Assembly (NCBI RefSeq): GCF_037975245.1
Contig: NC_092575.1
Coordinates: 26,819,841 to 26,883,840, forward strand
Reading direction: 5' to 3'
Origin: Apostichopus japonicus
Lineage: Eukaryota > Echinodermata > Holothuroidea > Aspidochirotida > Stichopodidae
Length of the DNA: 64,000 nucleotides
Below, piece after piece: positions 9,101-15,100 of this stretch (its first letter is position 1; each line of letters starts with the position of its first letter). The notes below the pieces were generated by a model. It did not search any database, was not told where the DNA came from, and was given only the letters and a program-made list of their open reading frames with translations. Both the position numbers and the translations under genes were made by a program.

Positions 9101-12100
9101 AAAAAGGAAAGTAAACAAGGAGAAAAAGAAAAAAGGATAAAAGTTATGTAATGTATTCAATCTTCTCTTGTAAATAAATAATTCTATGGTAACTTCGACA
9201 GACCTGGAAATTTGAAAGATTTCATTCTCACACACAACATAGACATTACGGTTCATTCACGTGAGCAATCGAATCAATTTATATATATATTTACTTATTT
9301 ATATGTTTAAAAAGTACAAATACCAATCATTATTTGGTATATTTTATAATGTACAAATACCAATCATTATTTGGTATATTTTATATTTGAATATACCTGC
9401 TCCGCTGTTTTTTTTTAAATAATTCCAGAATGTTCTAAACTATGGAGCAATAAATTCCTACAGGATTGCATGAAAAAAAAGCCCTTCTCACCATTTGCGT
9501 CGACTGTGTGATGGACTCGTTTTAGTTCCATTCTGTTCCACATCTCTCTTTGGGCTCGATGCCGCGACGGATGTCGCCGCTGCAGGGTTCAGTAGTGGCT
9601 ATGTAAACAACAAATGATATAAAACAATGTGTTACAGCTCCGTGTCTGTACTAATAATGATGCATTTATTTGCTTAATAGATACGTACATTGCATTGACT
9701 GACTCGGAATGCTAACGACCCCTGTACGGACTTTGTTATTTTATCACAATTTGGGTGAGGGTGCGACGGCACTAAGTAGGTTTAATATTCAAAGTTCAAA
9801 GAATATTGTAACATGTAAAGCAATTAAATGTCTGATAGTTACCGTCAACAGTTTAAGATAAAATTTGAATATATTTTGTTATATGTACATGTATATATGT
9901 ACATGTATATACATGATTGTGTATATGAATATGTATATGTATTTATAAATGGCAATGAATATGAATGTTAATATGTATATGTGTAGATATATGGGTCTGT
10001 TCACGTTAAAGCGCCCAAATTAGCATAAATGGCATTTGGAGCATTGTGACAAAATAATTAGAGATTCTAGAGATACAAATATTATCCCCATGGAGAGAGT
10101 CCACCTAGCTGTACCTACCATAGCATAGACAATTTCCTGAGATATGCATATATATATGCTATACTCCCAGAGGTGCCGAAATGTGGACGGAAAATGTTGC
10201 CGTTTTCAAACTGCACTATTTGTACTTCGAGCTATTCTCAACTCCAAAAGTGGATTACTCCAAATTTTGTCATGATTGAACTTTGTGGCTATAGGTTCCC
10301 TCTCATAAATATTTCAGAAAATTTCATTGATGAATTTGCGAATTATTGCGAAACCGGACCAGTGTTTCGGACATCACTTTTTCCGTCCACATTTATACAC
10401 CAATTTGTGAGTGGCATAGTTTGGGGTTAAATAACAAATGTTGACAGTGGTGTGCTTTTTCGATACTGTCATAGTTGTATCAAATAAAATATATATCAGA
10501 TGCATGTCCATTCAGCCACATTTTACTATACGATAAAGTTAAACAACATGCAAAATGTTTCCGTCCACATTTTGGTGATGTCCGAAACATCATGAAGCAA
10601 CTAATATATGAAGTATGTTAAAACCCACAAGACTATTTTGTTACTCTAATTAAAGCATAAGTACTCCCTCAACTACAGTATGTACATGACACATTTCCAC
10701 TCATCCGTTTTGATTTTATAAACATTTCAATTTTTCCGTCCATGTGTGTGATGTCCGAAACACCAGTGATGTCCGAAACAAGTTTTCATTAATATTGCTT
10801 TATATTGCTTGAATAAAAGACACAATAGATGAGCACTTCATATATTATGACAAGTTCTATTGTTACAAACATACATACTGTACTACTCAAAACTTTTTCC
10901 ATCTTTACCAAATATTATAGCAAAATAACCTTAAAAGTATGTTTCGGACATCACCGTGTGTTTCGGACATCACTTTTGTGAATCCAACATATTGTAAAAC
11001 AGCACTAGTTTCAACTGAATGATTCAATTGGTTGATTTCAGTGTGCTAGAATACACTAAGATCCTACAACAGAATGCTTCTTAACTTTTGGTGTCATGTG
11101 ACCAACATGTATTCATCTTTTGATGACTTGTGACAAGTCTAAAATGATATTCTACATATTTGGGTATGAATGTTACTGGGAACATCAAATTACTTGGATT
11201 TTTCTAGAACTGACATCATTAACACTACAATTTTCCATCACTTAGTACTGAAGAAGTAAAAAAACCGTTTAGTGATTTTTTTTCTGACATAACATGTAAC
11301 AGGATGCCATCACAGTATACAGTACATTAGAAAGTAATGCTGTAATTGTCTGCTATACTGTAGCTTGAATCAAGCTATTTGTCACAACCATAGAAAGCCT
11401 ATTTACAGGCTAGAAGAACTACATCAAAGGGCACGTGGGTACCATGCATGGACTGTCATGTGATGTGTTCCAGCTTCCATGGCGGTACCAATTTGATATT
11501 TCCCAATATCATATTGAGAATTGTAAAGTTAATTACACACAATTGGAATAGGCCTAGACGAGTTTTGTAGCACAGTAGCTCATGTTTCTATCACATCGGT
11601 CTACAGCATAGTATGTCAACGTCACTTTGGAAAACTGAACACCGTTCAGTGTCGTCTGTCGCTCTATATGTATGGAATCAGTGTGCATCTATAACACCCT
11701 ATGTCAGAGCAGTTTAACTGTTGATGGGAACTTGATGGTTGTCAAGAAAAGCTACCAGTACTTTGGGAAGATGTTAGCTAAGTAGTAGGACCGTGGAACG
11801 TGTCTGGTGATCTAACCTATAAATATTGCTCAACGACTATAACTATAATGTTAAGGTACGACATTGCTAGGTAAATGTGTGTTGTCTGCTGCTAGAAGCC
11901 CAAATATACATTTACTGTAGTTAGTTAGTAAATCACAATGGGCAATGTGGAGATTAATGCAGTATATCAGATTATTAGTACCACCCTGGAACACATTACA
12001 GTACATGACCCTCTTTGACTGGTACGCGGATTTACTGTGTGATGAAACCTCCAGGTTTACTCGATGGTGTCAACAGTATTAATATACACAGAGTGGTGCA

Positions 12101-15100
12101 TCATGCATGACCATGTTTTCATTCCGAGTTGCTTCAGACTTCAGAGCTTTAGTGATATGTATACAGATATTTATCATTATGAAACTTAAGGATAAAGCTG
12201 AACAATTTGCTGAGCTGCTGTATACCATAACATCTAGGCCTTATACTTAAATGTAAGTTTAGGCCATAAGCTTAAATAATAACAATCTTACAAAGTAAAT
12301 CATTTAATTCATATGTGACAAGGAGTATTTGTACAAACCATGTAATACTTGTTTTTCACATTATAATAGCCAATGCATCATGATGAATCTCAATAAAGAA
12401 GGATATTTAAACTAGTACTTATACTGTAGTACTACTAGTATAGGGTACTACTGTTGCTTAGCTGGGCCAGTGGAAGCAATCTTCAACATTGGCAGATCCA
12501 GCTCAAAGGTGCATGGGGAGGGGGTGGGAGCGGGTGGGTACCATTTGAAGGGGTGCAAAATAGTTGTTATTGCTGACATAACAAAATAGGACCAAGCATT
12601 CTAGTGGAGTTTAGGATATGATAACCAGGTCCTCCCCTCTGAAAATTGTTTAAATAGTAGACTCAATGATACTAGCTACAATTGACAGGTGGGTGCCAAA
12701 TTAGCTACAGTATGTAGGGATGTCTCCTGTGTACATCTGTATATTTATTAAATGGTAAATATTTGCTGTTTGTTATTGCAGACTTCATCTAGGTAATGAT
12801 GGAAATGTGGAAACCGTAAAAGTTAAAAAGAATTCTATAACCCTTTTGGGGGAAAAATTTCTTTGCAGTCAATAATAATACCATTTTCTGCATGTATAAG
12901 TTGATGTTTCTGGGAAGTGTTGGTGTATGCTGGCCAATGCAAATGGTATGCTGGACAGGTAACAAATGTGGTGAAGCAGAGATTAACTTTATGCAAATGG
13001 TGATCAATGAATGGTCACTATGTGGAGTGTTATGGAGTGTTAGCTCAGTGGTTAACGCCGGTGCCTTTCAATCATAAGGTCCCGAGTTTGTGTCACTCCA
13101 AGATTAATGTATGTCGTCAAGTTACAGAGTTGTTGACAATTGACAATTCATAATCATGGTCGTTAAATATGAATCTAAGAGACTGACTTCGGTCAGCTTG
13201 CGGCTTTGATATAAAGCCAATGATGGCTTCTTCGCGAGTTCCTGCTTGCAGGAGGATCTAAACTACATGTGTGTATTCTGGATATGTATGAATTAAGTAT
13301 GTAGTAAACAGTGATAATTCATTAACATTAAATGGGGTTATCATTTACACCAAGCCTTCAGATTTTCACTTATCACCTATCTTTTCACCTATTGGCTCTG
13401 TCCAGATGTTCAATTTGAAATATGTGCCTCAGGGCATTTGTTTTCCCAAGAATTTACAGTGCCATTATTTTTCAGTCCACCTTGTTGATTTCCCAGTCTA
13501 TGGTGTTTTAATAAACTGCATTCCCTCAAAAATTCATAATATCTAGTGTACAGTAAATCTGCTACTGTCTGACTGTTGTGTATATTTTGAAGCAGACTTT
13601 TGTTGCTTGAACAGGTTTGAATAGCAAAAATATTACTTCATATTGTTGTTACCTGCTGAAATATGTATTATTGCTATGCAGCTTTGTGAACATTTTTCCA
13701 AGGTGATGTCCGAAACATTCAGTGATGTCCGAAATGCTCATTAAGTAACATTTAATGAACACTGAGGATTTGAACTATAATAAGTTCAAAACTGTCATTA
13801 TAGCTTAAAGGTAGCTTGTCAACAACAAAGACCCCTTTGTTACAAATTTAACTTTTGATATGATATGCATTGTGTAGAAAACATTACAGTGATGTCCTAA
13901 TACAGTTGTGGTGATGTCCGAAACATAGTCCAAGACAGTCTTATGCAAATCTATAAAACAAGTGTTTGCATTTTTCATTATTTCAAATGAATTTGATGCT
14001 GTTTGTTAGCATCACATATCGTGATGTACAGTACTGATATATACCGTATTGCTAAGTATTAACAAGCATGGCCTTCGTTTAAAAATTGTCTTGTTGATCA
14101 CTTGGATCACTTGTATCCCTTTTCTTTGTTTTGAACTTGGAACCTAGGAAGGGTCCATAGCTCTCTTTTGGTACGGGTATCAACTTACTAAAATGCTTTT
14201 CTATTCATTATTATTGCCATTAAATGAACATCATTTGGTTTATTACTAAATATTAGGTTTAATATATTAGGTAAACCATTGGTGGGTGATGTCCGAAACG
14301 AGATCAATTTGGAGGGGTGATGTCCGAAACAAGAGTCAAGAAAAAAAAAATTCTGAGAGGACATGACCCAGAATTTTCAGCTTTTGGTTAATATATGTGC
14401 TTATGTTGTGGTTTAATTTTATGGTGTAATTGTTACTATTAATTTCAATTTTGTTCTTTAAAGAAAAACTTTTTAAACTTTATTTCAGGAAAAATTGAAT
14501 ATTTTCTAACGATACTCTAATATTTTTGAAAAAACATCATCGATATTATTGAAAACTTGTCTTACAATAGCAAATTTTGTGTTAATAAAGAAAATAAAAA
14601 CAGAATTCCCAAATGTAGCAGCAATGGAATGACACACCACCATTAAAAAAAGAACAAATTTGGGGAAATTTATAGATTGTCACACTTTCAACCATCTTGA
14701 ATATAATTTCCAGAATAGTTTAAGCTCTGGTCAATTCTGATTCATAAATTGCAGATATTAGTTATGTTATTTATTTAGAATAGAAGTTCTTTACTGTAAT
14801 TTGAAAATTTGGTACCTCAGGCAACCAAATTGGGCGCTTTAACGTGAACAGACCCATATACGTTGAAAACCCGGTGTTCTAAACCCACCAATACTGAAGC
14901 GGATACACGAATTAGTATATCTCAGAAACGGTCTTGGGCACGTCAGTAAAATTGTCGCTTCGTTGAATAACCATTCATGTTGTCATCATGCATGCATAAA
15001 ATCATGTGACTGGCTTATTGTCAATTCATTATTTCAATTTTTGTGTATAAATACGTTTTAAACAACATTTTCCGGTTCAAAATTGTCACGTAATGTGATT

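Follow-up and report, generated by a model that had tools for sequence, protein, structure and literature searches.

What would a transposase hold on to in a transposon that carries no gene of its own? The question is raised by a 64,000-nt stretch of the genome of the sea cucumber Apostichopus japonicus (NC_092575.1, positions 26,819,841–26,883,840; hereafter the window), in which positions 9993–14855 form a complete gene-free DNA transposon of 4.86 kb, bounded by the inverted ends GGGTCTGTTCACGTTAAAGCGCCCAA and bearing an array of short motifs well inside each end. The element belongs to a family with several dozen copies in the genome that resemble one another closely, and we consider it likely that this is a long, non-autonomous cut-and-paste family which was active recently and whose arrays are bound in trans by a transposase, probably a Sola2-type enzyme or one from a group not yet described.

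Ends, copies and target duplication

Together with a palindromic ATAT flank, the inverted arms of the window copy span 34 nt (9988–10021 and 14827–14860) and are 97% complementary. They comprise the left terminal inverted repeat GGGTCTGTTCACGTTAAAGCGCCCAAATT (9993–10021, plus strand) and, by inverted-arm comparison, a right one that reads inward as GGGTCTGTTCACGTTAAAGCGCCCAATTT (14827–14855, minus strand); the tips are GGGTCTG...CAGACCC, and the ends can also be written GGGTCTGTTCAC. ATAT stands on both sides (9989–9992 and 14856–14859), just as an initial annotation of the window, made from its letters alone, had reported. The inverted ends proposed there are real, with one small adjustment to the 27 bp given: the two ends agree over 26 bp and differ at base 27.

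We searched the genome assembly (G000; 671,581,487 bases in 35 contigs) for this and other patterns, using the reversed pattern as control and counting matches as plus+minus strand. The 24-bp end core, GGGTCTGTTCACGTTAAAGCGCCC, occurs 46+50 times at ≤2 mismatches, and its control 0 times. When all 96 matches were paired by hand, 74 fell into 37 convergent pairs and 22 stayed unpaired. One pair spans 132 bp, 31 span 4,604–5,803 bp, four 7.65–10.06 kb and one 45.6 kb; hence 36 of the 37 cover at least 4.6 kb and, the 132-bp pair apart, there is none shorter than that, although a two-mismatch search favours young copies and may miss older short ones. We read 29 full copies (the window copy included), the 132-bp copy (L051) and, leaving out ~35 kb, the 45.6-kb copy on C20. 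Six pairs lie outside the set that was read: C7:18150912, C11:13913583, C15:17629461, C16:3419820, C16:41961240 and C19:8548646. With the exception of C16:41961240, each of them can be aligned with the window element near full length. Measured against their consensus, 22 of 24 recent copies diverge by 1.2–2.6% and two by 9.3%.

Ends that fail to coincide with copy limits had been named in the initial annotation as an observation that would speak against a transposon; all 29 full copies stop at the same tips, with the right tip altered in two (L023 and L030), and their 20-bp flanks differ when judged by eye. The length of the target site duplication, which was to be derived from full copies, proved to be 4 bp: flank comparison gave an exact duplication in 20 of 29 copies, one mismatch in seven, three in one and four in one, while the next 4 bp outward agree in just one of the 29, within an AT repeat. 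The copy with three mismatches is the 9.3-kb copy on C12, which has an extra GGGT at its tip and ATAT outside that extra GGGT; the copy with four is L023, one of the two with an altered right tip. Among the 20 exact duplications ATAT occurs ten times, and ACCT, ACTC, ACAT, TACT, ATAA, TTCA, AGGT, GCAT, ATGT and ATAC once each. Because several of these are not palindromic, they fix the limits of the element as GGG...CCC. The copies thus support positions 9993–14855 as a member of a real DNA transposon family, with ends that are the limits of its copies.

The annotated lack of a coding frame also stands. At 119 aa, the longest stop-to-stop frame of the window element falls inside what 200 shuffles of the element gave, where the longest frames had a median of 94 aa and a maximum of 158 aa. 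In the consensus of the 24 copies no frame exceeds 101 aa. A Pfam search with 30 frames from the element, namely its five longest stop-to-stop frames and 25 that begin at a start codon and reach ≥40 aa, returned nothing above cut-off, the weak matches to Gal11_ABD1, IL8 and Nucleos_tra2_N lying below theirs. The sole Rfam match, to the lysine riboswitch at 13690–13827, scored 22.6 bits against a gathering score of 30 and is probably due to chance.

Motif arrays inside both ends

A motif scan found the 14-mer GTGATGTCCGAAAC ten times exactly and 11 times at ≤1 mismatch in the element, and nowhere in the rest of the window at ≤2 mismatches; in 300 Markov-1 sequences the mean count was 0 (0.02 at two mismatches). 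Genome-wide, the 15-mer has 183+185 exact matches, versus 1+0 for its control. Six sites, of mixed orientation (-+++--), occupy the region 0.37–0.98 kb from the left end of the window copy: 10363–10377 (minus; TGTTTCGGACATCAC), 10575–10589 (plus), a pair spaced by 18 bp at 10748–10762 and 10766–10780 (both plus), and a pair spaced by 19 bp at 10940–10954 and 10959–10973 (both minus). The remaining five all point one way (+++++) and lie 0.53–1.15 kb from the right end: a 19-bp-spaced pair at 13703–13717 and 13722–13736 (the latter with one mismatch in the 14-mer), a single site at 13911–13925, and a 31-bp-spaced pair at 14286–14300 and 14317–14331. The plus-strand sequence GTGATGTCCTAATAC at 13889–13903 is a degenerate version, outside the 11 good sites, that is degenerate in 24 of 24 aligned copies. 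In number, grouping and orientation the sites are as first annotated, and the depth given then (0.4–1.1 kb) agrees with the distances found. Between the arrays lies the non-coding middle (10990–13690), kept in young copies and mostly unalignable to the most diverged copy that we read.

The initial annotation had also pointed to copies without motif clusters as a possible counter-observation. Every one of the 29 full copies has both clusters, nearly always as -+++-- and +++++, and one 132-bp copy is without the motif. Exceptions apart, the first left site lies 362–372 bp and the nearest right site 520–526 bp from its end. The exceptions are L030 (minus one left site), L008 (an extra match farther in) and L026 (where a deletion has brought the right array to within 311 bp of the end); the 9.3-kb copy on C12 was entered in the tally unturned, so that its left array counts there as right and its right array as middle. 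The tight spacings of 18, 19 and 19 bp are constant wherever both sites are present, and the outer right pair is spaced by 30–31 bp. The larger intervals vary, on the left (211–213, 158–178 and 172–176 bp) as on the right (169–201 and 345–375 bp), with outliers of 659 bp (L010) and 726 bp (L004) caused by inserted DNA and of 293 bp in L030, the copy that is one left site short. Clusters follow one another at ~160–215 bp, roughly a nucleosome length, with one interval near double that. As a genome pattern, the 18-bp pair occurs 23+21 times (control 0) and has no match when its gap is made one base short; a shortened pattern of the 31-bp pair occurs 18+14 times (control 1). Outside full copies, we fetched five motif places from among the first 100 matches listed. 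The motif looks element-specific, because all five proved to be fragments of the family.

A second short repeat, TTTTCCGTCCACATTT with its variants, accompanies the motif sites at the left end (10179–10194 on the minus strand; 10379–10394, 10557–10572 and 10732–10747). Its three plus-strand copies are 175–178 bp apart, and a weaker match lies at 13469.

Conservation of the motif sites

The most diverged two-ended copy that we read, C20:28478542 (3,918 bp; longest frame 79 aa), retains the sites well. Compared with the window, its 11 sites are identical at 156 of 165 positions (94.5%) and the rest of its ends at 1472 of 1883 (78%), a site identity that sampling 11 windows at random did not reach once in 20,000 draws; since the alignments may be anchored on the motif itself, the effect may be inflated. 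The pair spacings in this copy are 18, 19, 19 and 32. By blastn, the first 1.41 kb of the window element aligns to it at 76% and the last 1.47 kb at 72%, and from the middle just two pieces, of 76 and 61 bp, align. Such conservation supports the view that these are cis-acting binding sites.

The same test was applied side by side to diverged end fragments, with 5000 draws each. In the nine tests, draws equal to or above the observed value numbered 0, 6, 145, 191, 243, 1303, 1388, 2588 and 2615. The two lowest are the left (0) and right (6) sides of C20:28478542 taken apart, and 145, 191 and 243 belong to three other right ends, which lend weak support (in one of them, C17:15619487, two of five sites could be aligned). 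On these comparisons, support for site conservation comes mainly from one copy, faintly from three right ends, and not from the other four fragments.

Several observations weigh against a binding role. Site conservation is absent from three left ends (on C9, C8 and C12, with 1303, 2588 and 2615 draws) and from a right end on C15 (1388 draws), where three of five sites aligned and the inner half of the fragment is non-family DNA, which blurs the test. Nor are the sites spared in the 24 recent copies, diverging by 1.53% compared with 1.75% for the rest of the ends, in a count that also covered the degenerate sequence at 13889 and in which the position of one site was shifted by a base. The short copy L051, on C21, has both ends and the flanks ATAT/ATAC and no motif; it either moved without the sites or lost them later. 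The middle is not free to vary without limit, because ~0.7 kb of the middle of C20:28478542 aligns to L007, a copy on C2, within a 2.15-kb match (68%) that runs inward from the right end. Young copies also keep the 2.7-kb middle, for which binding sites by themselves give no reason. Finally, no transposase of the family was found in the copies read, so that the role of the sites is inferred. The proposal in the initial annotation that the clusters are transposase-binding sites is backed by the conservation in C20:28478542 and weakly by the three other right ends, and not by the four fragments or the recent copies.

Search for an autonomous partner

An autonomous partner elsewhere in the genome, as the initial annotation presumed, has so far gained no support: no transposase gene of the family occurs in the copies read (29 full copies and parts of others), long copies hold other inserted DNA, and a lone neighbouring transposase belongs to a separate P-type element (see below). 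The long copies on C1 (8.4 kb), C3 (10.1 kb) and C12 (7.65 and 9.3 kb) were rejected as partners, their extra length being inserted DNA after which family sequence resumes with overlaps of 2–16 bp. The C1 insert has no frame of ≥110 aa; the first 2.6 kb of the C3 insert is a separate multi-copy repeat; and the insert of the 9.3-kb C12 copy holds reverse-transcriptase-like frames, Penelope-like by eye only.

End sequences were followed further with shorter patterns. The first 15 bp, exact, matched 116 places (100 listed; control 0+2), the same 15 bp followed by non-A matched 40 (all listed; control 0+2), and the first 12 bp with C, G or T as the next base matched 137 (100 listed; control 13+6). 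No partner was found among the matches listed and read from the 24-bp, 15-bp and 12-bp end searches. For the 15-bp + non-A pattern, 24 of the 40 places were read: 18 in one batch, four of the seven on C16, L051 on C21 and L010 on C22. In the batch, 17 were fragments of the family, mostly in larger repeated blocks with shared flanks, and one (C3:14186743) had no match to the element beyond the end. Blocks of this kind, at C16:6881420–7156565 and C12:14787005–17262936, repeat family end fragments that share flanks where read; they are duplicated or amplified chromosome segments carrying an old insertion. Starting from the array, we found no partner in seven stretches fetched from the 44 matches to the 18-bp pair or in six from the 32 matches to the 31-bp pair, which contained truncated or rearranged copies, stretches without family DNA and unrelated frames. 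Three of the frames met in the search were set aside: that of L082 resembles a Gal-3-O-sulfotransferase (PF06990), that of L087 is Gypsy-like by eye, and that of L081, inside an insert on C20, looks by eye like a reverse transcriptase. The enzyme that moved the family, probably a member of Sola2 or of a group so far undescribed, is probably extinct, absent from the assembly, located in an unread copy, or equipped with clearly different ends.

A P-type transposase beside one copy

Next to family DNA on C19 lies a 779-aa frame (L083:497–2833) that matches PF21787 (1.9e-30) and PF21788 (3.6e-14), followed in colinear order by family DNA and then by the right end of the family. This order is what an internal-deletion derivative of a P-superfamily element might leave behind, and the family could in principle be one. 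The P-type element, however, has ends of its own (CAGAGCCGTATAT...) and, at its copy on C21, an exact 8-bp duplication, TTGAATGC, in place of the 4 bp of the family; at C19 just its left end is present, upstream of the gene, the right end missing where family DNA starts; and neither family DNA nor the motif or an end of the family occurs in the ~4-kb pieces fetched from both sides of the C21 gene and of a further gene on C19. In a straight comparison, family and P-type ends match at six of 24 positions. We therefore reject L083 as the partner. In our reading, two broken elements have been joined in the C19 arrangement, of which there are two instances separated by 26,029 bp; descent of the family from a P element is very unlikely.

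The C21 copy itself (C21:1208331–1215346; L089 and L090) is a P-superfamily element of ~7 kb whose 31-bp inverted ends are perfect and whose transposase frame is long and open, and its relative on C19 has upstream frames that are THAP-like by eye.

Proposed mechanism and alternative explanations

If the arrays are bound as we favour, a transposase encoded elsewhere, possibly together with a partner protein, would bind the sites cooperatively. Each tight pair (18–19 bp or 31 bp) would accommodate two subunits, and through the sites the complex would be loaded onto both ends before it makes a cut with a 4-bp stagger and inserts the element by its GGG...CCC tips. The functional cis unit would then take up ~1.2 kb at the left end and ~1.4 kb at the right end, a size that would explain the near-absence of short deletion derivatives with well-kept ends (one of 37 pairs).

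Could the locus instead be an ordinary repeat, or a chance pair of inverted ends around a tandem-like motif, with no transposon at all? In AT-rich surroundings, a palindromic ATAT on either side could pass for a duplication, but 28 further copies stop at the same tips, with flanks that differ by eye and with non-palindromic duplications (ACCT, ACTC, AGGT, TTCA), so that we give this idea virtually no credence. A more substantial alternative takes the transposon as given and regards the arrays as sites for a host factor, transcriptional or chromatin, that were acquired once and copied along with the element. It would sit well with sites that lie 0.37–1.15 kb inside the ends and do not adjoin them, with their lack of extra conservation in recent copies and in three diverged left ends, and with the 132-bp copy that has both ends and no sites. 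It has more difficulty with arrays at both ends of every one of the 29 copies, with a motif that looks element-specific (all five outside places fetched being family fragments), and with sites that are better preserved than the sequence around them in the most diverged copy that we read; we judge it unlikely, though far from negligible. A bolder version of transposase binding, which we hold to be rather improbable, is a system of an undescribed group with bipartite end recognition, in which the tips define the cut and the deep array of paired sites recruits the complex. Elements without an array would hardly spread, and a gene-free lineage would have kept its arrays through ~22% divergence of the ends and with most of the middle unalignable.

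Should the deep arrays be needed in cis, the family would amount to a natural experiment in the way a transposase locates ends at a distance of up to 1.15 kb, and its copies of several ages would allow a comparison of which end bases matter.

Additional features of the copies

A subgroup of eight copies, of 5.2 kb, carries ~400 extra bases at a point corresponding to window ~11598–11608, with an 11-bp overlap at the junction; the difference is either an old insertion that spread with the element or a loss in the shorter form. On C21, the older rearranged copy L078 has its left and right arrays joined, its middle gone and its left tip unrecognised. Within the window element, a tRNA-like stretch, GTTAGCTCAGTGGTTAACGCC... 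(~13035–13110), is by eye a piece of a tRNA-derived SINE (short interspersed element); ARAGORN reported no tRNA, this stretch included. The segment 13000–13400 is the most divergent among the recent copies.

The 45.6-kb copy (C20:17815837–17861483; L080 and L081) owes its length to an insert of ~41.5 kb at C20:17818205–17859684, whose inverted ends of ~280 bp are 95% alike. Paired by hand elsewhere, these ends bound stretches of ~1.2–37 kb (for example C17:24954690–24982941, C17:20096707–20133707 and C17:15407833–15431276), and the insert is possibly a giant inverted-end element.

Comparison with known systems

Literature searches on subterminal site clusters and on the family end returned nothing relevant, the first 12 bp matching just under unrelated titles, and no Sola2 end sequences. 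We compared the family with known groups by duplication, ends and architecture. The 4-bp AT-rich duplication fits Sola2 best, without proving it.

Sola2 elements start with GRG. That the family is a non-autonomous derivative of Sola2 in the strict sense is a tentative idea to which we assign somewhat less than an even chance. In its favour, the accessible part of PMC3627910 gives Sola2-type elements AT-rich 4-bp duplications (AWWT, ATAT), like those of the family, and the accessible part of PMC13228809 annotates Sola-2 elements in another sea cucumber, where their 1856 bp stand at the long end of the length range of DNA transposon subfamilies. On the other side, no Sola2 transposase was found, in a study that made no profile search for one; the likeness is one of duplication, and the Repbase rule, as excerpted from PMC4455052, demands that duplications be equally long and that the first 11 bp match, ≤1 mismatch being tolerated. 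The family also differs in having no transposase and in its subterminal site array, which the Sola2 descriptions in these excerpts do not mention. In the accessible part of PMC12550476, 'Sola' occurs as part of a species name only.

CACTA/EnSpm elements carry short subterminal sites, in both orientations near both ends, that are used by a binding protein, and their usual duplication is 3 bp. The family resembles them and their non-autonomous derivatives in its repeated short subterminal sites, but its ends are GGGTC in place of CACTA, its duplication is 4 bp in place of 3, and its sites lie 0.37–1.15 kb inside; with such ends it is not a CACTA/EnSpm member. Some members of the PHIS assemblage (PIF/Harbinger, ISL2EU, Spy, Pangu, Nuwa) start with GGG, as the family does, and several of its groups have AT-rich targets. 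Their duplications, as far as the accessible text of PMC4482050 goes, are TWA (Harbinger), AT (ISL2EU), ANT (Pangu), CWG (NuwaI), probably TNA (NuwaII) and none (Spy). As none has 4 bp, the groups of that paper are ruled out, while an excerpt of PMC10045372 allows 1–4 bp in the wider PHIS group. Ginger1 and Ginger2 share 4-bp duplications with the family, Ginger2 preferring AT-rich RTATAY, but have TGTNR ends according to the accessible part of PMC2836005, and the GGGTC ends of the family rule them out. The P superfamily, which also transposes by cut-and-paste with inverted ends and has a member in the same genome, differs in its 8-bp duplication (TTGAATGC) and its ends (CAGAGCCGT versus GGGTCTG), so that membership there is rejected as well.

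Kolobok elements duplicate TTAA, and none of the 20 exact duplications is TTAA, which rules them out. The same count excludes piggyBac, whose duplication is TTAA in the accessible part of PMC5199201. That text also sets miniature inverted-repeat transposable elements (MITEs) at under 800 bp, and with 36 of 37 end pairs at ≥4.6 kb the family is not of that kind. With ends that are the limits of its copies, a fixed 4-bp duplication and no transposase gene in the window copy or the consensus, it is a non-autonomous DNA transposon with terminal inverted repeats. Gene-free DNA transposons are often short, of a few hundred bases. As a gene-free DNA transposon the family is thus of a known kind; fixed near 5 kb, with paired arrays 0.4–1.15 kb inside its ends, it is to our knowledge an unusual variant.

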